Of a stretch of DNA of 32,367 bases, positions 215 through 16,676 are shown piece by piece. The stretch comes from an uncultured Lachnospiraceae bacterium (GTDB taxonomy: Bacteria > Bacillota > Clostridia > Lachnospirales > Lachnospiraceae), in the NCBI GenBank assembly GCA_947628045.1, contig CANQYP010000009.1:1-32367 (forward strand), given 5' to 3'. Numbering within the stretch: the stretch's first letter is position 1; every line of letters begins with the position of its first letter. The notes beneath the pieces are model-generated. The model saw only the letters and a program-made list of their open reading frames with translations. It was not told the DNA's origin and made no database searches. Made by a program: the position numbers and the translations under genes.

Positions 215-1999
215 CTAGCCTGCCATTCCGCGGTACATATCCGCGTAGCGTCCGTTCATCGCAAGCAGCTCGCTGTGCGTCCCGACTTCCTTGATGTCGC
301 CGTTTTCCATGTATATGATCTTATCCGCGTTCTGAATCGTGTACAGACGGTGCGCGATAATGAATGTGGTGCGGCCGTTCATGAGCCGTTCCATAGCCCG
401 GGTGATCATCGCCTCGGTCCGGGTATCCACCTGCGACGTAGCCTCGTCGAGGATCAGGATCCGCGGATCCGAGATCACCGCGCGGGCTATCGTGAGCAGC
501 TGCTTCTCGCCCACCGAAAGCGCCGAATTCTCGTCAGATAAATGTGTCTCATATCCGTTTGGAAGTTTTTCTACAAGCGAATCACACTGCACGGCCTGCG
601 CGGCCTCGGCGACGTCCGCCTCCGACGCTGAGGGCTTGCCGTACGCTATGTTCTCCCTCACCGTACCGTCGAATATCCAGGTATCCTGGAGCACCATTCC
701 GAAAGCGCTGCGAAGCTCCTCTTTGGAAAGCTCGTATGCGTCAACGCCGTCGACGTATATATGACCGTCCCAGATATCATAAAAACGCATCAGAAGGTTG
801 ATGAGTGTCGTCTTGCCCGCGCCGGACGGCCCGACAATGGCGACCGTCATGCCCGGCTCAGCCGTAAAGGATACATCCTCCATGAGCGGGGAACCCTGCT
901 TGTAGCCGAAACGGACGTTCCTGAACTCGATCTTGCCCTTCAGGTCCGCCGGAAGTGTCTGGGTCGGATTTTCCGCCGGCTCCTCCTCCTCGTCGAGCAG
1001 CTCGAAGATCCGTTCCGCGGACGAAAGAGCCGTCTGGATATTGTTCATGGAACTCGACATCTGCGAGAGCGGAGTCCCGATCATGTTTCCGTAAAACAGG
1101 AAGGCTGTGAATTCGCCGAGCGTCAGATTTCCGTGTATCATCAAAATTCCGCCCACCACGCAAAGCGCCACATACGAGATATTGATCAATATTCCGCTGA
1201 TCGGGAGCGCCAGACCCGACAAAAAGCGCGCGCTCACATAGGTACGGTAAAATTCATCGTTAAGCGCCTCAAACCGTTTCCCTTTTTCTTCCTCACAGGT
1301 ATACGCCTTCACGACCGTGTGGTTGGAGTAGGTGTCAGAGACCTCCTCCGTCAGCCTGCCGAGCGACTCGTTCATCTGCCGGAACTGCTTTCCCGTAAAT
1401 TTGGTCACGAGACCGATCAAAAGCATATTGAGCGGAAGAGAGATCAGATAGATCAGGGCGAGTTTCCACTGCGTCACCAGCATCATGATGACGATGCCCA
1501 CGAGCAGCACCGCCTGACCGATCAATGACGAGGCTGTGGACTCGAGTCCGTTTGACATATTGAGCATATCCACCGTCGCCCTCGACAGCACATCGCCCGT
1601 CGCGTGGGTATCCATATAGTTGATCGGAACCGCGTTCAGCTTTTTCTCGATGCGGTTGCGGTACTTCCGCGAAAGCCCCTGGGAAATGCGTATGATCTGC
1701 TTGTTCACAAAACCGTCCGAACCGCAGCCGATAAAATACAGCACCGCCAGGAGAATGCTGTTTTTATAGATAAAACCCAAGCCCGAGACAAAACCGTTCC
1801 CGACGGATTCCTGCAGGAAATCCACCATCCGCTGCGTGATCACGGGCGCGGCGGTCAGACAGCATTTTGACAGCGCGATAATGATAAAAGCGGCGATAAA
1901 GCGGAAACGGTTCTTCCCCATGTCCTCAAAAAGACGTTTTATCACAACCGAATACGAATACTTTTTCATTTCCTTTTTGTTCTTTTCAAGCTTTTTCAT
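215..1999 (-). CDS. ABC exporter half-transporter, heterodimer subunit with the canonical Walker B glutamate
   Basis: This 594-residue protein is a type IV (ABCB-like) exporter half: six membrane segments in the first ~320 residues, then a nucleotide-binding domain with Walker A GPSGAGKTT (390-398), signature LSVGE (494-498, degenerate against LSGGQ), Walker B LILDEATS with catalytic Glu519, and H-loop His550. The start overlaps the upstream transporter stop by four bases (ATGA), indicating translational coupling; an internal Met11 is also possible. With its neighbour it forms a complementary pair: this subunit supplies intact Walker B and His, the other the intact signature, as in the TM287/288 and BmrCD type. 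Last gene of the GH3/NRPS-like unit, so export of that product is the likely role (inference). No terminator is visible before rnpB. Confidence 0.93.
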   Translation of the reverse strand: MKKLEKNKKEMKKYSYSVVIKRLFEDMGKNRFRFIAAFIIIALSKCCLTAAPVITQRMVDFLQESVGNGFVSGLGFIYKNSILLAVLYFIGCGSDGFVNKQIIRISQGLSRKYRNRIEKKLNAVPINYMDTHATGDVLSRATVDMLNMSNGLESTASSLIGQAVLLVGIVIMMLVTQWKLALIYLISLPLNMLLIGLVTKFTGKQFRQMNESLGRLTEEVSDTYSNHTVVKAYTCEEEKGKRFEALNDEFYRTYVSARFLSGLALPISGILINISYVALCVVGGILMIHGNLTLGEFTAFLFYGNMIGTPLSQMSSSMNNIQTALSSAERIFELLDEEEEPAENPTQTLPADLKGKIEFRNVRFGYKQGSPLMEDVSFTAEPGMTVAIVGPSGAGKTTLINLLMRFYDIWDGHIYVDGVDAYELSKEELRSAFGMVLQDTWIFDGTVRENIAYGKPSASEADVAEAAQAVQCDSLVEKLPNGYETHLSDENSALSVGEKQLLTIARAVISDPRILILDEATSQVDTRTEAMITRAMERLMNGRTTFIIAHRLYTIQNADKIIYMENGDIKEVGTHSELLAMNGRYADMYRGMAG

Positions 2000-3756
2000 T
2001 CGGACTCACCGCCCCTTTCCGCGTTATCGCCGTGATCGAGGTAATACTGTGTCTGGTAGATCTCGCGATAAGGCTCGCAGCTCTCAAGGAGCTCCGTGTG
2101 AGTGCCTATCCCGACAATATGTCCTTTGTCCAAAACGATGATCTTGTCCGCGTCCATAATGGTGCTGATCTTCTGCGCGACCATGAGCGTCGTCTTGCCC
2201 TTCAGCCTTTCACGTATGCGCTTGCGGGCGATGCTCTCCGTCTTCGCGTCCAGCGCCGAAAACGTGTCGTCAAAGATATAGATCTCCGCGTCTCTGGCTA
2301 CCGCGCGGGCAAGGGACAGCCTCTGGCGCTGTCCGCCGGACAGGTTCGTTCCGCCTGGGCTCATCACTGTGTCAAACCCGTCGGGCAGCCCGTCGACAAT
2401 CTCACTGAAACATGCCGCGTCGCAGGCGGAGCGGATCTGCGCGTCCGTCATACCCTCATCAAATACGCAGATGTTGTTTTTGACCGTATCACGGAAGACC
2501 TGCGCGCGCTGTGTGGCGTAGGACATTTTGCTCCGAAGTTTTGAGGGGTCATACTTGCCGACGGGAACACCGTCGATCAAAATCTCGCCAAAGGTAGGTC
2601 GATACAGCCCCTGCACCAGATTCATGATCGTCGTCTTGCCGCTGCCGGTCGCGCCGATAAACGCCGCCGTCTCTCCGCGCTCGACCTTGAAGGAGACATT
2701 TGCGATCACATCCGTGGCGCCCGCGTAGCCGAAAATAACATTTCTCATCTCTACCGCGGGGGCGACGCCGCTTTGCGCCGCTTTTACCGCGCCGCTCTCA
2801 ACCGCGGCAGATTCGTATTCCAGCAGCTCATTGATCCGCTCGCTGGACACCGCCACCTTGGGCAGCATATTGACCAGGACCGGAACGATCCCCAGCGTCG
2901 CGATAAAATAAGAAATATACTGGAAGATCAGGATCAGGTCGCTGATCTGCGCCATGCCCGAGCGGAGCTGCGTCGAGCCGACGAGATAAATGACGACCAC
3001 CACCCAGTTCATGATGATGAGCGAGACGGGTGAGAGGAAATTGATCTTGCTGTTGGCAAGTATCGCCGCGTCGAACGTATCCTGATCCGCGGCATACATT
3101 TTCTCCTCTTCCATCTTCTGATTGCCGAAGGCGCGTATGGGACGGACGCCGGTCAGCTTTTCCTTGAACAGCGCGTTTAAGTGATCGTTCTTTTCCTGCA
3201 GCTTGTCAAAATAGAGCTTGGACTTTGCTCCGTTGTAGACCATATAGATGACCGTGATGACAAAAGAGACAAGCAAGATCCCGAACATCATGAGATCGAT
3301 GCGCGAAATCATGATCAGGAGACAGATGACGACGATGGGGACCGACATACTGCTCCGCAGGAGATTGATGATAAAGGTACTCATCTGCGTGATGTCCGCC
3401 ATTGTTCTGCTGAGCAGCGTGGACTCACCGAAATGAGCGAAATCCTGAGAGGAAAACGAGGTCGCCTTGTTGTAGCAGTCGCTCCTCATCCTGCACGTGA
3501 TCGCCGCCGTCGCCCTCGCCGAGAGGTACGACGTGATCAGGGTGACAACAGCGATCGCAAGCGTGATCAGGAGCATCTTCCCGCCCGACTGCCAAATGAA
3601 CGCAAGGTCGCCGCGGGCAACGCCCTGATCAAGGATGCGCTTGGATTCGGGCAGGAAAAGCCCCACCTGGATAAAAGTCGAAACGATGGTAAAAAACAGG
3701 GTTCCGATTAACTCCCACTTAAGATCCTTAAGATATCTTTTTAGTAAACGTATCAT
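1996..3756 (-). CDS. ABC exporter half-transporter, heterodimer subunit with degenerate Walker B and H-loop
   Basis: This 586-residue ABCB-like half-exporter has membrane segments in the N-terminal ~310 residues and a C-terminal nucleotide-binding domain with Walker A GATGSGKTT (from ~368) and canonical signature LSGGQ (~472-476). Walker B reads IYIFDD, with Asp in place of the catalytic Glu (~497), and the H-loop His is replaced by Gln (MVAQKI, ~528). These are the classic marks of the degenerate site in heterodimeric exporters. A GTG at 3765 overlaps the NRPS-like stop but has no spaced ribosome site; the ATG at 3754-3756 sits 8 bases after GGAG (3765-3768), so I use that start. It overlaps the next half-transporter by four bases. 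The substrate is unknown and inferred to be the cluster product. Confidence 0.92.
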   Translation of the reverse strand: MIRLLKRYLKDLKWELIGTLFFTIVSTFIQVGLFLPESKRILDQGVARGDLAFIWQSGGKMLLITLAIAVVTLITSYLSARATAAITCRMRSDCYNKATSFSSQDFAHFGESTLLSRTMADITQMSTFIINLLRSSMSVPIVVICLLIMISRIDLMMFGILLVSFVITVIYMVYNGAKSKLYFDKLQEKNDHLNALFKEKLTGVRPIRAFGNQKMEEEKMYAADQDTFDAAILANSKINFLSPVSLIIMNWVVVVIYLVGSTQLRSGMAQISDLILIFQYISYFIATLGIVPVLVNMLPKVAVSSERINELLEYESAAVESGAVKAAQSGVAPAVEMRNVIFGYAGATDVIANVSFKVERGETAAFIGATGSGKTTIMNLVQGLYRPTFGEILIDGVPVGKYDPSKLRSKMSYATQRAQVFRDTVKNNICVFDEGMTDAQIRSACDAACFSEIVDGLPDGFDTVMSPGGTNLSGGQRQRLSLARAVARDAEIYIFDDTFSALDAKTESIARKRIRERLKGKTTLMVAQKISTIMDADKIIVLDKGHIVGIGTHTELLESCEPYREIYQTQYYLDHGDNAERGGESE

Positions 3757-3761
3757 AATTT

Positions 3762-6728
3762 TCACTCCAACAGTTCCGCAACAGAAAGCTCCAGCGGATT
3801 TTCAGCCTCAAGCAGTTTTTTCGCGATCTCAACAACAACGTCGGTGAACTCTTTGATTCGCTCATCGCTGTAGTATTTTTTGGAATACTGGAACATCGGA
3901 TGCGCGCCGTCAGGACCTTCCACTATGACTGCCGTGAGTCTTCTGCTCGGAGCGGATTGTCCGCCGACCATGTCGCTGAAACGCTGAACCGGCGAAAGTC
4001 CCAGCTTTCTTAACGCTCCTCCGTTCGCGATCGACATCGTCTCATAGACGCACAGGGCGGAGTCGTCGACAAAAATATTTGTGCGCTGCGCAAGCCATTC
4101 GCAGCGGCAGTTCGCGATCCCGTCCGCCATCTGCCGCCGGATCGTGTCGCATATGTCAGAAAATGAACGGAGCTCATTCAGCCGCAGCCCCAAGGGAAGC
4201 GCTTGAACCACCAGACCTGCCGCCGAGCGTTTCTGCTCGTCCACGCGATAGTGGAACGCCCATTCCAGGAGAATATCCTTCTTTTTGTTGTACTTTCCCA
4301 GGGCGAGCGCGACGATCACATCAAAAAGATTACTCCTCGAGAAACCGGTCTTTCGTTCAAACTGTTCCAGCTGCTCTATCGTGACGCTGAACGGCAAAAC
4401 GCTCATGCCCGCGAGATTCTCTCCGCCGTCCTGATCCGGCTCCAGCGTATTGCTCCATTCGACCTTCCCGTAAACACGCTCAAAATAGTCCATTTCCTTC
4501 CAGTATTCATCGGTCTGGCGGAAATCGGCTTTTTCGGCAAGATAGCTGTAAAAGGTGTCAAGCTCCGGCTCTTCCCCCAAGCCGATCCGGACCATGTTCG
4601 CCAGGAATACCTGCATGCCGGTGCCGTCGATCAGGCTGTGATGGATCTCCAGGAACAGATAGGAGCGCTTTTCGGTCTGGAAAATGCGCGCGGTAAACAA
4701 CGGTTTGTTAAGCAGCGCGGTCATGCCCACAAGACCCGGGCGCAGCTTTTCAAACTCCTCCTCCGTGACATGCTCGATCTCCACGACCGGGCAAAGCTCC
4801 GGCACGTAACGCTGCTGCAGATCACAGTCTTCATTGAATTCATAAATCGTGGAGCAGACCGGATGGCTGCGTATCGTCTTGTTCACAACATCGCAAAGCC
4901 ATTCCGTCCGGGATACGTCCTCCAGCGCAAAAAGCTGCATAATGCTCAGCATCGTATCCTTGGGGGTGGAAAGCTGCCAGTCGAACATCGCAAGCTGCGT
5001 TCCCATAAGCGGCTGCGGGTTTCTGCGCGCCTCCTCCTCGATCTCTTCCGGGGTGCGCGCATTATTTTCCTTCCTGCGGTCCAGATAGATCTCAGCGATT
5101 TTCGCCGCTGTGCAGCCCTTAAAGATATCCATCGCGCTGAAGTCATCCAGATCCACCTCGACAAGCACCTGCATCGAGCGCAGGGAATCGCCGCCGAGCT
5201 GATAAAAGTCGTCGTTCCTGCCGACGCGCTCAAGCTGAAGGACCTTGGCAAACGCGTCGCAAAGCCGTTTTTCCACCTCGTTCTGCGGGGCGGCATATTC
5301 CGACTCATACATCTCCCGCTGCGGTTTCGGGAGCGCGCGGCGGTTCAGCTTTCCGTTGGGAAGCAGCGGCACATTCGCAATGCGAATATAGTATGCCGGG
5401 ATCATGTAGTACGGGAGCGACTTTTCGAGCTCTGCCTTCAGGTCCGCCTCGCTCATGGGCAGGTCGTCATTGTAATAGAGGCACAGATAAGACTGGTTCG
5501 GCTCCTCAAAGCCTTTGACGGCGCACCAGTCAAGACCGGTCACACGCTTTGCCGTCGCCTCGATCTCTGCGGGCTCGATGCGGTTTCCGTTTATCTTGAT
5601 CATGTCGTTTTTGCGCCCCAGCAGCACGATATTGCCGTCCGAGAGCCTTCTCGCCAGGTCGCCCGTGTGATACAGACCGTCCTTTAACGCCTCGGCGGTC
5701 TGCTCGGGCAAATTGATATAGCCGCGCATAAACGGATTTTCAAAACAAAGCTCGCCGATCTCGCCCTCGAGGACGTCCTGTCCATTATCCTCCAGAAGTC
5801 TCAGCTTGATGCCGTCGTAGGTCGGCTTGCCCACCGGCGTGACCTCGTACGGACGGTCTATGATGAATTTGGCGACGTTGAAAGCGCCCTCACTCATGGA
5901 GTAGGTATTCAGGATGTCGACCCCGTCTATGTAGATCCCGTTCGCCGGCTCGCTCCCGGTAAAGATGTGTTTCAGATACGGGCCGAGTTCTCCGATCACC
6001 CGGATCATGGACGGAGACAGGAACGTGTCGGTGATACGGTTGCCGCGGTAATATTTTTTCAGCTTTACCGGATTTTTCACGATGTCATAGGGCACGATGT
6101 AAAGCGTGAACCCGTTGTATATCACCGAAAGCGCCATCTTGATCGAGGCGATAAAATTGAGCGGCGCGATCAGGGCAAAACGGGAATCCTGCGTGATCCT
6201 GCGCACGCCGTCCGGGTTGCCGCCCGTGATCTGATTCAGCTTAATATTGCCGTACTCATGCAGCACGCCTTTGGGGAAACCTGTCGTCCCGGACGTGTAC
6301 ACGGCAAACGCCGCGTCGTGGGGCTCGGTTTTCTCATAGCCGCTTAGGGGCTGCACAGCGCAGATCTCCTCCCAGGTCTCCATGTCGATGACCGCCTTGC
6401 AGCCGCAGTCTTTTTTGATATACTCGATGCGATCCGGCGCGTAGTTATCCTCGACCACAGTGAACGCCGCCCCGGCTTTCCATACTCCCAGCATCGCTAT
6501 GATCGGCATGATTCCGCGCGGCAGGCAGATCAGTACAAAATCCTCCCTGCCTACCCCCTTTTGTTTCAGCCACGCGTACACCTGCGCGGACCTCTGATCC
6601 ATCAGCTCCCTGCTGATGCCGCCGGTCCTCACGCCGTCTACCAGGACAATGCGTTGGGGATCGTTTTTTACATGCTCGCTCCAGCGCTCGCACAGATACG
6701 GTACCTTATCCAAAAAGTCAAGATTCAT
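3762..6728 (-). CDS. NRPS-like single-module protein: adenylation, carrier, condensation domains
   Basis: This 988-residue protein has three domains. The adenylation domain (about 1-470) shows TSGTTGFPKG (145-154), an A5-like NTYSMSE (274-280), YHTGDLA (353-359), and NGKLNR with the catalytic Lys460. The carrier domain (about 480-550) has LGGDSL with the phosphopantetheine Ser515. The C-terminal condensation-like domain has an intact HHSLIDG (696-702). It would activate an amino or other acid, tether it as a thioester and condense it with a second substrate. There is no thioesterase or reductase domain, so release must be by the C domain or in trans. No phosphopantetheinyl transferase gene is in the window. 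It starts 17 bases after the GH3-family gene with AGGA upstream. Substrate specificity cannot be read reliably from the sequence alone. Confidence 0.93.
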   Translation of the reverse strand: MNLDFLDKVPYLCERWSEHVKNDPQRIVLVDGVRTGGISRELMDQRSAQVYAWLKQKGVGREDFVLICLPRGIMPIIAMLGVWKAGAAFTVVEDNYAPDRIEYIKKDCGCKAVIDMETWEEICAVQPLSGYEKTEPHDAAFAVYTSGTTGFPKGVLHEYGNIKLNQITGGNPDGVRRITQDSRFALIAPLNFIASIKMALSVIYNGFTLYIVPYDIVKNPVKLKKYYRGNRITDTFLSPSMIRVIGELGPYLKHIFTGSEPANGIYIDGVDILNTYSMSEGAFNVAKFIIDRPYEVTPVGKPTYDGIKLRLLEDNGQDVLEGEIGELCFENPFMRGYINLPEQTAEALKDGLYHTGDLARRLSDGNIVLLGRKNDMIKINGNRIEPAEIEATAKRVTGLDWCAVKGFEEPNQSYLCLYYNDDLPMSEADLKAELEKSLPYYMIPAYYIRIANVPLLPNGKLNRRALPKPQREMYESEYAAPQNEVEKRLCDAFAKVLQLERVGRNDDFYQLGGDSLRSMQVLVEVDLDDFSAMDIFKGCTAAKIAEIYLDRRKENNARTPEEIEEEARRNPQPLMGTQLAMFDWQLSTPKDTMLSIMQLFALEDVSRTEWLCDVVNKTIRSHPVCSTIYEFNEDCDLQQRYVPELCPVVEIEHVTEEEFEKLRPGLVGMTALLNKPLFTARIFQTEKRSYLFLEIHHSLIDGTGMQVFLANMVRIGLGEEPELDTFYSYLAEKADFRQTDEYWKEMDYFERVYGKVEWSNTLEPDQDGGENLAGMSVLPFSVTIEQLEQFERKTGFSRSNLFDVIVALALGKYNKKKDILLEWAFHYRVDEQKRSAAGLVVQALPLGLRLNELRSFSDICDTIRRQMADGIANCRCEWLAQRTNIFVDDSALCVYETMSIANGGALRKLGLSPVQRFSDMVGGQSAPSRRLTAVIVEGPDGAHPMFQYSKKYYSDERIKEFTDVVVEIAKKLLEAENPLELSVAELLE

Positions 6729-6745
6729 AAATTCACTGTCCTTTC

Positions 6746-8434
6746 TTATTCCTCGTCAACCAGCTTAAAGAAATATTTTTCTTTGAATAGATTATCGATC
6801 ACCCGCACCGGCTTTAACTGGTTCTCGCTGGTGCCCTTCATGATCATCAGGTCGCGGTACAGCGCGTAGGTCTCCTGCTGCACAAATTTCAGCGCCGTCG
6901 GCGCGAGGATTCCTTCCTTGACCTTCGCCCCGAAGGACGGGTTCGCGATCGAAAGCTTTTCCTCTATGATATTCCGGTACTCGTCATGCCGCTCCTTCGG
7001 AAGATGTCTGTGCGGCTCGATAAACATCACATACCGCCCCGGATTTGAATCCGTGTCAGCATAGATACTGTAATCGTTCACCGGCATATGCACGGCTTTT
7101 GAGAACTCTTCCACCGCGTACTGCACCGCCGAGTCGTTGGTCTTCTCGCCCGCGATGCTTATCATCTGCTTTTTCCGGTACTTAAAGCAGATCTTCGGAG
7201 ACTCCCCTTCATATCCGTTCACGGTGATCACATCGCCGATCCGATATCGGTAAAAGCCCGAGAAGTTCGTAATGATGATCTCATAGTCCTGTCCGACCTC
7301 AAGCTCATTGAGTTTCAAGGTCTGCGTCCTCAGAGTCTTCTCGTCGCCCTCGGCGTCCACGGGCAGGAACTCATAATAGCCGCCCTGCGGGATCAGCGTG
7401 TAATCCATCGTCTCCACCTCGGTGACAACGCCCATCATCGCCTCCGACGCCGCGTAATTGCCAAAGGTCATAGGTATGCTGCCGGTGTAGTGGCGGAGCT
7501 TGTTTGTGTATACCACGAATCCGCCGGCACCGATCGCGTTGATATATTCCATGTTTTTCCATACCTTCGGCACAAACGGCTCGTCAAAGCCCTGCTCAAA
7601 TATGGCGCAAAGCTCGTCCGCGCGCTCCGGGTCAGGGCTGAGAGCAGAATTATATTTTTTCCGAAGATCGTCCGGGATACTCACATTCTCGTCCAGCCGC
7701 CCATTGCGGATGTCCCTGACCAGATTTTCCCAGTTAAGCTCTATGTAATGCATAAGGTCGTAAAGAGCCGTCGTGAAAGGTCCTACCAGACATATGATGT
7801 TCGGCTCTTTCAGGGCGTAAAAGCTCTTCAGGTACTTAAAATCCATCTTCTCCGTGGTATAAAGCACCTCTTCCGGCGACGCGACGAGCCTGGTCATGAT
7901 ATCTTTTGATTTCATGTACATAGCGCCGGAAATCGAACCGCAGGGAGTGCCGTCTTCCACCTTTGTCTGCGAGACCACCGCCGTGATCACACGTTTTCCG
8001 TTTCTCATCTCCCTGTGTTCACGCGCGCGGATATAGTCCGAAATCAGCGCGGTGGCGACGTTGGACGTATACTGCGCGTACAGGTTCATCGTCTGTTCGG
8101 ACACGGGAATCCTCTTCGGGTTCCCCACGCTGCCGGACGTCAGGGCATAGTGGACGATCGGATAGACGGTGAATATGTTCTTTTCCCCGCGCGTCATCCT
8201 CTCGATCCCCTCGGCATAATGGTCATACTCGGTAAACGGCATTTGCGCTTTGTAGTCTTCCACACTGTGTATTTTTGAAAAATCATGCGCGATTCCGTAT
8301 TCGGTATTTTCATTGTCACGGACGATCTGCATCAGAAGATTGTCCGAAAATTCACCCGCGTGCGCACAGTTTTCCTTCAGTACGGCAAGCGCCGCCCTTC
8401 CGGCATCCGCCGGAGACATCTTTTTCGTATCCAT
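6746..8434 (-). CDS. GH3-family acyl-adenylating amido synthetase
   Basis: This 562-residue protein has the three nucleotide-binding signatures of the GH3 (auxin-responsive promoter) family: LTSGSVGNPKRIP (98-110), YAASE (327-331) and FYRYRIGDV (394-402), in the usual order and at normal length. GH3 enzymes adenylate a carboxylic acid and transfer it to an amino acid or another amine; they belong to the ANL superfamily. They are best known from plants, where they conjugate hormones, and bacterial members are mostly uncharacterised. This is the first gene of the cluster, directly before the A-PCP-C protein, so the two activating enzymes probably build one acyl-amino-acid or peptide product (inference). 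The substrate is unknown. A GGGGTGA sits about 12 bases before the start codon, slightly far but acceptable. Confidence 0.9.
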   Translation of the reverse strand: MDTKKMSPADAGRAALAVLKENCAHAGEFSDNLLMQIVRDNENTEYGIAHDFSKIHSVEDYKAQMPFTEYDHYAEGIERMTRGEKNIFTVYPIVHYALTSGSVGNPKRIPVSEQTMNLYAQYTSNVATALISDYIRAREHREMRNGKRVITAVVSQTKVEDGTPCGSISGAMYMKSKDIMTRLVASPEEVLYTTEKMDFKYLKSFYALKEPNIICLVGPFTTALYDLMHYIELNWENLVRDIRNGRLDENVSIPDDLRKKYNSALSPDPERADELCAIFEQGFDEPFVPKVWKNMEYINAIGAGGFVVYTNKLRHYTGSIPMTFGNYAASEAMMGVVTEVETMDYTLIPQGGYYEFLPVDAEGDEKTLRTQTLKLNELEVGQDYEIIITNFSGFYRYRIGDVITVNGYEGESPKICFKYRKKQMISIAGEKTNDSAVQYAVEEFSKAVHMPVNDYSIYADTDSNPGRYVMFIEPHRHLPKERHDEYRNIIEEKLSIANPSFGAKVKEGILAPTALKFVQQETYALYRDLMIMKGTSENQLKPVRVIDNLFKEKYFFKLVDEE

Positions 8435-8497
8435 ACTAAGAAAAGTTCACCCCATTCCAGTAAAGTAAAAATATAATTGTGCATAATCCGATTGTTT

Positions 8498-8503
8498 ATT
8501 ATA
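8498..8503 (-). promoter_or_regulatory. possible -10 box of the GH3/NRPS-like operon
   Basis: A perfect TATAAT occurs on the minus strand in the AT-rich 116-base gap before the GH3-family gene. The best -35 at 17 bases is a weak TTGTTT; a better TTGACG nearby is at the wrong distance. The box lies in a self-complementary ATTATATAAT (8498-8507), so direction is not proven, but only the minus strand has a gene to serve. Confidence 0.35.
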
Positions 8504-8550
8504 TAATACGGCGTCAAAAAAAACAACCCAATCTTCGATTTCCTGCAGCG

Positions 8551-16298: not shown

Positions 16299-16676
16299 TC
16301 AGACATGAAATTTCTGGAGCAGCGCATCCTGAAGTACGCGCGAAAGGCTGAGTCCAGTCTCCGCCACCTTGTCATCCATCCACTTCGGAATGCTCACAGT
16401 CCGCTTTATGGCACGATTTTCTCTCACATCGGCGCGAATCAAATTGACAAACTCATTCTCTTTCGTTTCAATGTCCTGAATCGCGCTCGCCCGCGGAACC
16501 TCCTGTTTTTTATCGGTACAATACTCCATCCACTGCGTCAGAGCAGACTGTGCCATATACATAGCGTTCGCCAATGTCTTCCCTTCACTGATGCATCCGG
16601 GAAGATCCGGGTATGTTATCGTATAAGTCCCGTCCTCATTTGAGTGAAAAATAGCCGGATAAACATACTCTGCCAT
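16299..16676 (-). CDS. HicB-like antitoxin/repressor, without a HicA partner
   Basis: This 125-residue protein has an N-terminal HicB fold (partial RNase H-like; the motif YPDLPGCISEGKTLANA at about 23-39 is characteristic). The C-terminal DNA-binding segment (about 90-125, RTVSIPKWMDDKVAETG) resembles a ribbon-helix-helix. In hicAB loci HicB neutralises the HicA mRNA interferase and represses its own promoter. No HicA-like ORF lies on either side: the gaps are 87 and 135 bases, too short. AGGAGG (16685-16690) sits eight bases before the ATG. Its promoter contains a perfect palindrome (see operator), consistent with autoregulation. It interrupts the otherwise housekeeping comEC/dgt neighbourhood, suggesting insertion. 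Confidence 0.85.
   Translation of the reverse strand: MAEYVYPAIFHSNEDGTYTITYPDLPGCISEGKTLANAMYMAQSALTQWMEYCTDKKQEVPRASAIQDIETKENEFVNLIRADVRENRAIKRTVSIPKWMDDKVAETGLSLSRVLQDALLQKFHV

Follow-up and report, generated by a model that had tools for sequence, protein, structure and literature searches.

We analysed the whole of a 32,367-base contig (C9; hereafter the window) of an uncultured Lachnospiraceae bacterium, whose genome, G000, comprises 2.68 Mb on 258 contigs and is 91% complete. A sequence-only reading had placed four minus-strand genes at positions 215 to 8434, and the open reading frames (ORFs) were found at that place, with every domain backed by Pfam. They encode a GH3-family enzyme, a nonribosomal peptide synthetase (NRPS)-like protein with adenylation (A), peptidyl carrier (PCP) and condensation (C) domains, and two ATP-binding cassette (ABC) proteins:

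6746..8434, minus strand: GH3a, a GH3-family acyl-acid amido synthetase of 562 amino acids (aa), identified by ORF, Pfam, PDB match and three intact nucleotide-binding motifs.
3762..6728, minus strand: A-PCP-C, an NRPS-like protein of 988 aa lacking a thioesterase domain, identified by ORF, Pfam and motifs.
1996..3765, minus strand: ABC1, an exporter half of 589 aa with a GTG start, identified by ORF, Pfam and motifs.
215..1999, minus strand: ABC2, the partner half of 594 aa, identified by ORF, Pfam and motifs.

GH3a and A-PCP-C are separated by 17 bases and ABC1 and ABC2 overlap by 4 bases, both as first described, but A-PCP-C and ABC1, which had been set about 5 bases apart, share 4 bases when GTG is taken as the ABC1 start. 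The 3' side of the operon is out of view because the contig stops 214 bases past ABC2. A Pfam scan of the four operon proteins detected no thioesterase, in agreement with the sequence-only reading.

GH3a contains the N-terminal (PF03321), central (PF23571) and C-terminal (PF23572) parts of the GH3 family, all above cut-off (E 3e-70, 3e-25 and 5e-21, respectively). Its three signatures read TSGSVGNPK (residue 99), YAASE (327) and GFYRYRIGD (393), the first being a variant relative to the motifs printed in PMC12493201. The best PDB match was the plant GH3-1 (4b2g, E 2.9e-57), and similarity to plant GH3 structures extended across most of the protein for 10 distinct PDB sequences (E 3.6e-47 to 2.9e-57). 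GH3a thus resembles plant enzymes such as GH3-1, JAR1 and GH3.12 over most of its length and in all three Pfam parts, but is distant from them and lies in a bacterial operon. It is expected to form an amide from an acid and an amino acid in an ATP-dependent reaction.

A-PCP-C matched AMP-binding (2e-47), PP-binding (2e-5) and Condensation (9e-22) in Pfam. The canonical catalytic Lys of the A domain (in NGKLNRR, 458), the carrier Ser (in GGDSL, 512) and the HHxxxDG motif of the C domain (HHSLIDG, 696) are all retained, so that every key motif which the sequence-only reading had called intact, including the GH3 signatures, was located. The C domain is terminal, with nothing after it. The A-PCP-C stretch of linear gramicidin synthase A (LgrA) has the same domain order and aligned over residues 16-873; unlike LgrA, the protein in the window is a free-standing single unit without a following module, a release domain or the amino-acid-binding Asp235 (GrsA numbering).

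In the alignment to LgrA, Ile replaces Asp235 and the A5 motif reads YSMSE instead of YGPTE, with Met for the conserved Pro. The window and each of the 5 full-length operon copies in the alignment have Ile235. Across the wider set of A-PCP-C proteins the position is Val, Ile or Thr, the exceptions being L044 and L121, with Asp, and a 667-aa L110 protein, with Ser; code position 517 is Lys in the window and in each aligned row covering the site. According to PMC11253843, Asp235 contacts the alpha-amino group of the substrate, alpha-hydroxy-acid domains carry Ala or Gly in its place, and StsA, a domain for an alpha-keto acid (alpha-ketoisocaproate), bears Ile there and Met where alpha-amino-acid domains have Pro. 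Because of Ile235 and the Met in A5, the A domain is unlikely to take a free alpha-amino acid, and its substrate is probably one without a free alpha-amine.

Such a domain could act, as those of depsipeptide synthetases do, on an alpha-keto or alpha-hydroxy acid, which would give a keto- or hydroxy-acyl amide. Ile235 and Met at the A5 Pro are indeed the two changes reported for StsA (PMC11253843). The A5 site is, however, highly variable among homologues, which makes Met there weak evidence. Depsipeptide modules usually have a ketoreductase domain, and Pfam found none here. We consider a keto or hydroxy acid substrate unlikely.

Both ABC proteins carry ABC_membrane and ABC_tran domains. In ABC1 the signature is intact (LSGGQRQR) and the Walker B (IYIFDD) and H-switch (VAQK) are what we take to be degenerate; in ABC2 we read the Walker B (ILILDEATS) and H-switch (IAHR) as functional and the signature (LSVGEKQL) as degenerate. 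Complementary degenerate sites are typical of heterodimeric exporters, and from their sequences ABC1 and ABC2 are predicted to form such an exporter with one degenerate ATP site.

A pattern scan of 84,980 species genomes with GH3, which detects close relatives only and may omit records very near the window's own, returned 7 loci in 6 metagenome-assembled genomes (MAGs), each named 'Lapin'. The four genes had been proposed to form one cluster, and they are conserved together in close relatives: the complete operon is intact in 4 of the 6 MAGs (L022, L023, L024 and L025). Two of the remaining loci, L026 and L028, are contig fragments of one MAG with a 32-base exact overlap; L026 holds the first part of GH3a, and L028 its last part, GH3b (see below) and the start of A-PCP-C. 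The ratio of nonsynonymous to synonymous substitution rates (dN/dS) relative to the window was 0.05-0.11 in five relatives, for the four genes in four of them and for GH3 and A-PCP-C only in L027. The operon genes are under purifying selection, and these values exclude chance as an issue.

Three of the MAGs (L023, L027 and L028) encode a second, divergent GH3 of 525 aa, GH3b, between GH3a and A-PCP-C. The L023 copy has the N-terminal and central Pfam parts and lacks the C-terminal one; motif-like stretches are legible. A recent tandem duplication of GH3a was unsupported, as GH3b forms its own long-branched clade, the exact placement of which is unsure, in a GH3 tree for which fusion proteins were trimmed to their last 560 residues and the proteins above 600 aa of L122 and L123 were excluded (the former is a glycosyltransferase by Pfam and the latter was assumed alike). 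We also observed that L027 (7198-13785) has no start codon at the usual GH3a start, with its three enzyme frames still open, and that in L026 (1-3456) a MATE exporter gene and a gene for a second NRPS-like protein (C domain, then A domain), cut by the contig end, are divergent from GH3a.

Identity, composition and a contig check support transfer of the operon between lineages. RpoD is 92-93% identical to that of the window in the L022, L024 and L025 genomes, but identity falls to 76% (residues 114-365 only) in the L027 genome and to 68% in those of L023 and L026. The operon proteins of L023 are nonetheless 83-88% identical to those of the window, and in the MAG of L026 and L028 identity reaches 85% over the first part of GH3a, 92% over its last part and 93% over residues 1-385 of A-PCP-C. 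The GC content at third codon positions is 70-74% in the operon of the window and 88% in the neighbouring kinase gene, and overall GC in L024 is 51% in the operon and 57% in the flank. The L023 contig as a misplaced piece of the window's lineage was ruled out: the best match of a methyltransferase encoded on it has 34% identity in G000 versus 66% in G204, and the tetranucleotide profile of its operon correlates better with three other stretches of the same contig (r 0.90-0.92) than with the window's contig (0.78). No match to GH3 or A-PCP-C was found in G152, another species of the window's genus. We infer that transfer ran from a lower-GC lineage into the window's lineage.

We propose that the four genes form a horizontally transferred, self-contained operon for biosynthesis and export of a small N-acyl amide, a reading to which we assign a probability of about 0.5. 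Its chemistry is predicted from sequence, as follows. GH3a would adenylate a free carboxylic acid, such as a fatty or aryl acid, and transfer its acyl group to an amine or amino acid, yielding an N-acyl amino acid; family knowledge and the intact motifs suggest that neither carrier nor CoA would be required. The A domain would then adenylate a carboxylate without a free alpha-amine, most simply this N-acyl amino acid or else a second acyl acid, and load the carrier, primed by the Sfp-type phosphopantetheinyl transferase (PPTase; 226 aa) of the genome; Ile235, the Met in A5 and the PPTase gene are consistent with this step. The terminal C domain would move the acyl group off the carrier and onto an amine or amino acid that diffuses freely, as the domain order, the failure to find another C domain or A-PCP module in the genome and the precedent of fatty acid amides suggest. 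In such a scheme condensation would double as release, and a thioesterase would therefore not be needed. The sequence-only reading had left release to either the C domain or GH3 transfer to an amine, and the C domain acting onto an amine appears to be the likeliest route. Finally, the heterodimeric exporter may expel the product, to which the conservation of the operon points.

As to the product, the acylated amino acid first suggested, or an acyl amide, fits these clues; a simple dipeptide of two amino acids, suggested alongside it, is unlikely, since the A domain probably refuses a free alpha-amino acid. The best reading would be a small exported N-acyl amide or an acyl-dipeptide, with GH3 and A-PCP-C making one amide bond each. 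More specifically, a carrier-free GH3 (two in some relatives) may make an N-acyl amino acid that A-PCP-C activates despite its blocked alpha-amine and couples to a second free amine, a sequence of events that we put forward only tentatively. A-PCP-C could instead make an N-acyl amino acid out of an amino acid and a plain acyl acid, as in the fatty acid amide (FAA) systems of gut Clostridia, whose A domains accept plain fatty acids (PMC13142362). GH3a could then activate the carboxylate of this compound and attach a further amine or amino acid to it; or each enzyme could make an amide of its own. Both enzymes live apart in relatives, each beside MATE exporters at some loci, and for this reason each is probably able to work alone. 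In the operon, however, they are the first enzymes of a closely spaced string that was kept together through transfer, and we regard the reverse or parallel order as possible but doubtful.

The FAA systems (OaaA, OaaACP and OaaC; PMC13142362) are similar to the operon in combining A, carrier and C functions with no thioesterase and, apparently, no acceptor module, in occurring in Clostridia and in having an A domain whose substrate seems to lack an alpha-amine, here as judged from sequence. OaaC joins carrier-bound acyl chains to free amines and may be the nearest functional analogue of the C domain in the window. The FAA proteins are free-standing, whereas A-PCP-C is fused; their usual C-domain motif is (D/H)HxxxDS, within the range (D/H)HxxxD(S/A), versus HHSLIDG here; and the operon has a GH3 and an ABC pair, neither of which is mentioned in the main text of PMC13142362. 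A PDB sequence search with the C domain gave 11 matches, and OaaC was not among them. The nearest characterised bacterial GH3 that we met is OlsH, which makes N-acyl-ornithine from a free fatty acid, ATP and ornithine (PMC12493201). Both OlsH and GH3a are GH3 proteins with three nucleotide-binding motifs, and ATP-dependent N-acylation of an amino acid would be the expected reaction of GH3a too. GH3a is nevertheless far below the cut-off of the NCBIfam OlsH model (91.4 bits, cut-off 620) and is paired with A-PCP-C. No OlsI-type O-acyltransferase was found in the four operon genes and the five upstream minus-strand genes scanned, the region beyond ABC2 being off the contig. Among the literature matches listed, judged by title and the start of the abstract in a search outside which most subscription papers lay, none described a GH3 beside an NRPS-like protein. 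The operon is a variant of a known acyl-amide or NRPS-like kind, not a categorically new one.

The plant GH3s, which by their PDB names conjugate auxin, jasmonate and benzoates with amino acids, raise the alternative that GH3a and A-PCP-C conjugate gut or dietary carboxylic acids (e.g. plant phenolic acids, if 'Lapin' denotes a rabbit host) for export as a form of detoxification. A two-subunit multidrug-type exporter would suit this function, as would the origin of all 7 operon loci from 'Lapin' MAGs. A carrier-dependent amide synthase would, however, be a costly route, and by Pfam none of the operon's four genes encodes a hydrolase, an uptake protein or a regulator; detoxification is thus improbable.

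Alternatively, A-PCP-C could be the first half of a split assembly line, its terminal C domain accepting an amino acid from a separate carrier. No C domain other than that of A-PCP-C was found in G000, which is 91% complete, nor was a second A-PCP protein; of 4 AMP-binding and 5 carrier matches, only the pair in the window lies in one ORF. Contig C5 encodes a stand-alone amino-acid-type adenylation protein (NCBIfam TIGR01733, above cut-off) and stand-alone carriers are encoded on C144, C58, C108 and C127, as a split line would need. There is, however, no carrier match on C5, and the settings of two carriers, named by reading the sequence, point elsewhere: that on C108 accompanies an MBOAT-like gene, an arrangement seen in Dlt systems, and that on C58 is beside a plsX-like gene as in fatty-acid synthesis. 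The operon also crossed lineages without such partners inside. We therefore give a split line very little credence.

Among wider relatives, genomes holding both GH3 and A-PCP-C are well above expectation, but the two were mostly not seen together at one locus, so that the joint conservation implied by the sequence-only reading holds for close kin and largely breaks down beyond them. In a sample of 200 genomes of the family (cut-offs E 1e-10 for GH3 and E 1e-120 for A-PCP-C), GH3 homologues were found in 17 genomes, A-PCP-C homologues in 7 and both in 6; in a sample of 392 genomes of the order (E 1e-20 and E 1e-100), the counts were 32, 14 and 7, own genome included in both cases. Without the own genome, GH3 was present in 5 of 6 A-PCP-C genomes of the family sample (0.48 expected, p 1e-5) and in 6 of 13 of the order sample (1.03 expected, p 2e-4). 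These p-values overstate the evidence because the samples overlap, the species are related and the GH3s of G023 and G193, 2 of the 5 in the family sample, are weak matches. A C domain was found less than 10 kb from GH3 at 5 of 49 GH3 places in 42 GH3 genomes (0.52 expected, p 2e-4); among these, G209 and G452 belong to the same family, and the GH3s of G023 and G135, the latter a fusion protein, are divergent. In one of the 5 other family-sample genomes with both, G057 (L046), the two are about 7 kb apart and the NRPS has several modules. The 6 other genomes with both in the order sample were never seen to have them close, as would suit enzymes acting separately or in reverse order: 5 have them on different contigs, several of them short, and G533 has them about 136 kb apart.

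On an A-PCP-C tree of 25 rows, the presence of GH3 showed only weak clustering: it needed 3 changes, compared with a mean of 4.6 after shuffling, and 21 of 500 shuffles gave a number as low. G023 and G193 were scored GH3-positive on weak matches; a length filter of 730-1400 aa excluded, among others, L121, L058, L051, L146, L026 and one protein of L110, and L052 was excluded by hand. With A-PCP-C as the query, 6 pattern-matching stretches of viral contigs encoded no relative, and 2701 plasmid records were all below 60% identity, the 8 of the 2701 that were listed being 25-28% identical and 7 of these 8 being annotated as NRPS or adenylation-domain proteins.

Neighbouring genes of 40 GH3 genes and 20 A-PCP-C-type genes outside the operon loci were counted as near (1-2 genes away) or far (4-8 genes away), with L116 and L118 being near-copies. 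Long MATE exporters were found near GH3 at 7/148 positions versus 1/265 far and near A-PCP-C at 6/73 versus 1/130, STAS proteins at 5/148 versus 2/265 and 3/73 versus 0/130, and SpoIIE proteins at 5/148 versus 4/265 and 4/73 versus 1/130, respectively. Some or all of the MATE exporter (564-605 aa), STAS and SpoIIE genes were observed near GH3 in L038, L042, L046, L048, L053, L144, L145, L137, L122, L123 and L139, and near A-PCP-C in L112, L116, L118, L120, L117 and L119. The MATE exporter is apparently joined to a partner-switching regulator. In a few cases its C-terminus is HATPase_c_2/RsbW-like: the extension in L137 matches HATPase_c_2 above cut-off, and matches to this domain were weak in L112, L048, L053 and L145 and absent in L116, L120, L042 and L026. 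By title and the start of the abstract, nothing on a pairing of MATE with partner switching was found among the literature matches listed. At part of their loci, GH3 and A-PCP-C types thus look like makers of exported compounds. Amidohydrolases were enriched near GH3 (near 4/148, far 0/265) but not near A-PCP-C (near 1/73, far 4/130), and carboxylesterases near neither (GH3, near 1/148, far 2/265; A-PCP-C, near 1/73, far 3/130).

Families F3, F4 and F5 adjacent to GH3 had been candidates for adenylation, carrier and condensation proteins; Pfam identified MATE, STAS and SpoIIE in those examined. A 492-aa protein of L137 that clustered with STAS is HD/APH and was left out of the STAS count. Amidohydrolase-3-type genes lie 1-2 genes from GH3 in L041 (on which Pfam was run), L130, L133 and L137, and from A-PCP-C in L111. 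Proteins of about 860 aa of a GT2 glycosyltransferase-GH3 fusion type were observed in L049, L050, L051, L044 and L146 (domains run on L050, the others grouped in the GH3 tree), with an ABC exporter pair nearby at 4 of these 5 loci (L049, L050, L051 and L146). In L129, L132, L141, L142 and L149, which are of one family of the order, GH3 adjoins queuosine/preQ0-type genes (PTPS, radical SAM, GTP cyclohydrolase I and QueC; Pfam run on L129). The ABC pair sets the operon apart from the stand-alone GH3 loci examined.

Several of our observations weigh against a self-contained operon for a small N-acyl amide. The four intact copies are not independent, since L022 and L024 hardly differ. L027 retains GH3a, GH3b and A-PCP-C, but ABC1 was not found and only a remnant of ABC2 persists, so that either the exporter is dispensable there or this copy is decaying. 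Full-length ABC exporters were not enriched near GH3 (near 0/148, far 5/265) or A-PCP-C (near 0/73, far 0/130). The separation of the two enzymes in the order sample points the same way, as does the closest A-PCP-C homologue of both samples (54% identity, with an internal stop and near a contig end): it is encoded by G137, an 81% complete genome in which no GH3 match was found. The stand-alone adenylation protein and carriers of G000 and its 91% completeness leave room for a separate carrier-bound acceptor, itself unlikely. A hydrophobic residue at position 235 is no proof of a blocked amine, and keto or hydroxy acids fit too. McyG uses phenylpropanoids. It is called Phe-activating in PMC11253843 and has Val at 235, so the rule is not absolute. 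Finally, the C domain bears the canonical HHxxxDG motif and is fused, not free-standing, and Gly occupies the last place of the active-site motif in only 17% of FAA C domains (PMC13142362).

Upstream of the operon, an alignment of 6 loci (window, L022, L024, L025, L023 and L026) revealed two elements:

8498..8526, minus strand: promoter-like element TTGTTT-N17-TATAAT upstream of GH3a.
8448..8453, minus strand: ribosome-binding-site-like GGGGTG, 13 bases ahead of the GH3a start, with GGTGA kept in 6 of 6 aligned loci.

TTG, a 17-base spacer and TATAAT are common to all 6 upstream regions; L027, whose upstream sequence differs, and L028 were not part of the alignment. The flanking genes in L023 and L026 are other than those of the window, whose neighbouring kinase gene was not found at either locus, and the upstream element thus travels with the operon. 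A consensus promoter scan did no better than shuffles (5 found, 6.3 expected) and did not list the element, because its weak -35 fits the consensus at three places only; the support for the promoter is the alignment. The five upstream genes scanned (uridine-kinase-like, NIF3-like, TrmK-like, RpoD and DnaG) are ordinary. A HicB-like antitoxin gene was also observed at 16299-16676 of the window; no search was made for a HicA partner.

Bacteria have many GH3 enzymes, few of them well characterised: more than 7500 hits to OlsH are reported in PMC12493201, which calls for functional studies. In gut Clostridia, NRPS proteins of the FAA type produce amides with activity on host receptors (PMC13142362). 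By uniting GH3 and A-PCP-C with an exporter, and with evidence of having moved between lineages, the operon offers a compact and testable way to the substrates of the two families. Should GH3 hand its N-acyl amino acid to A-PCP-C, the operon would amount to a miniature assembly line in which each acid-activating enzyme makes one amide bond, with its own pump and exchanged as a unit among Clostridia. Furthermore, the MATE and partner-switching neighbours that each of the two enzyme types has at some loci hint that Clostridia make a broader class of acyl amides that are regulated and exported.

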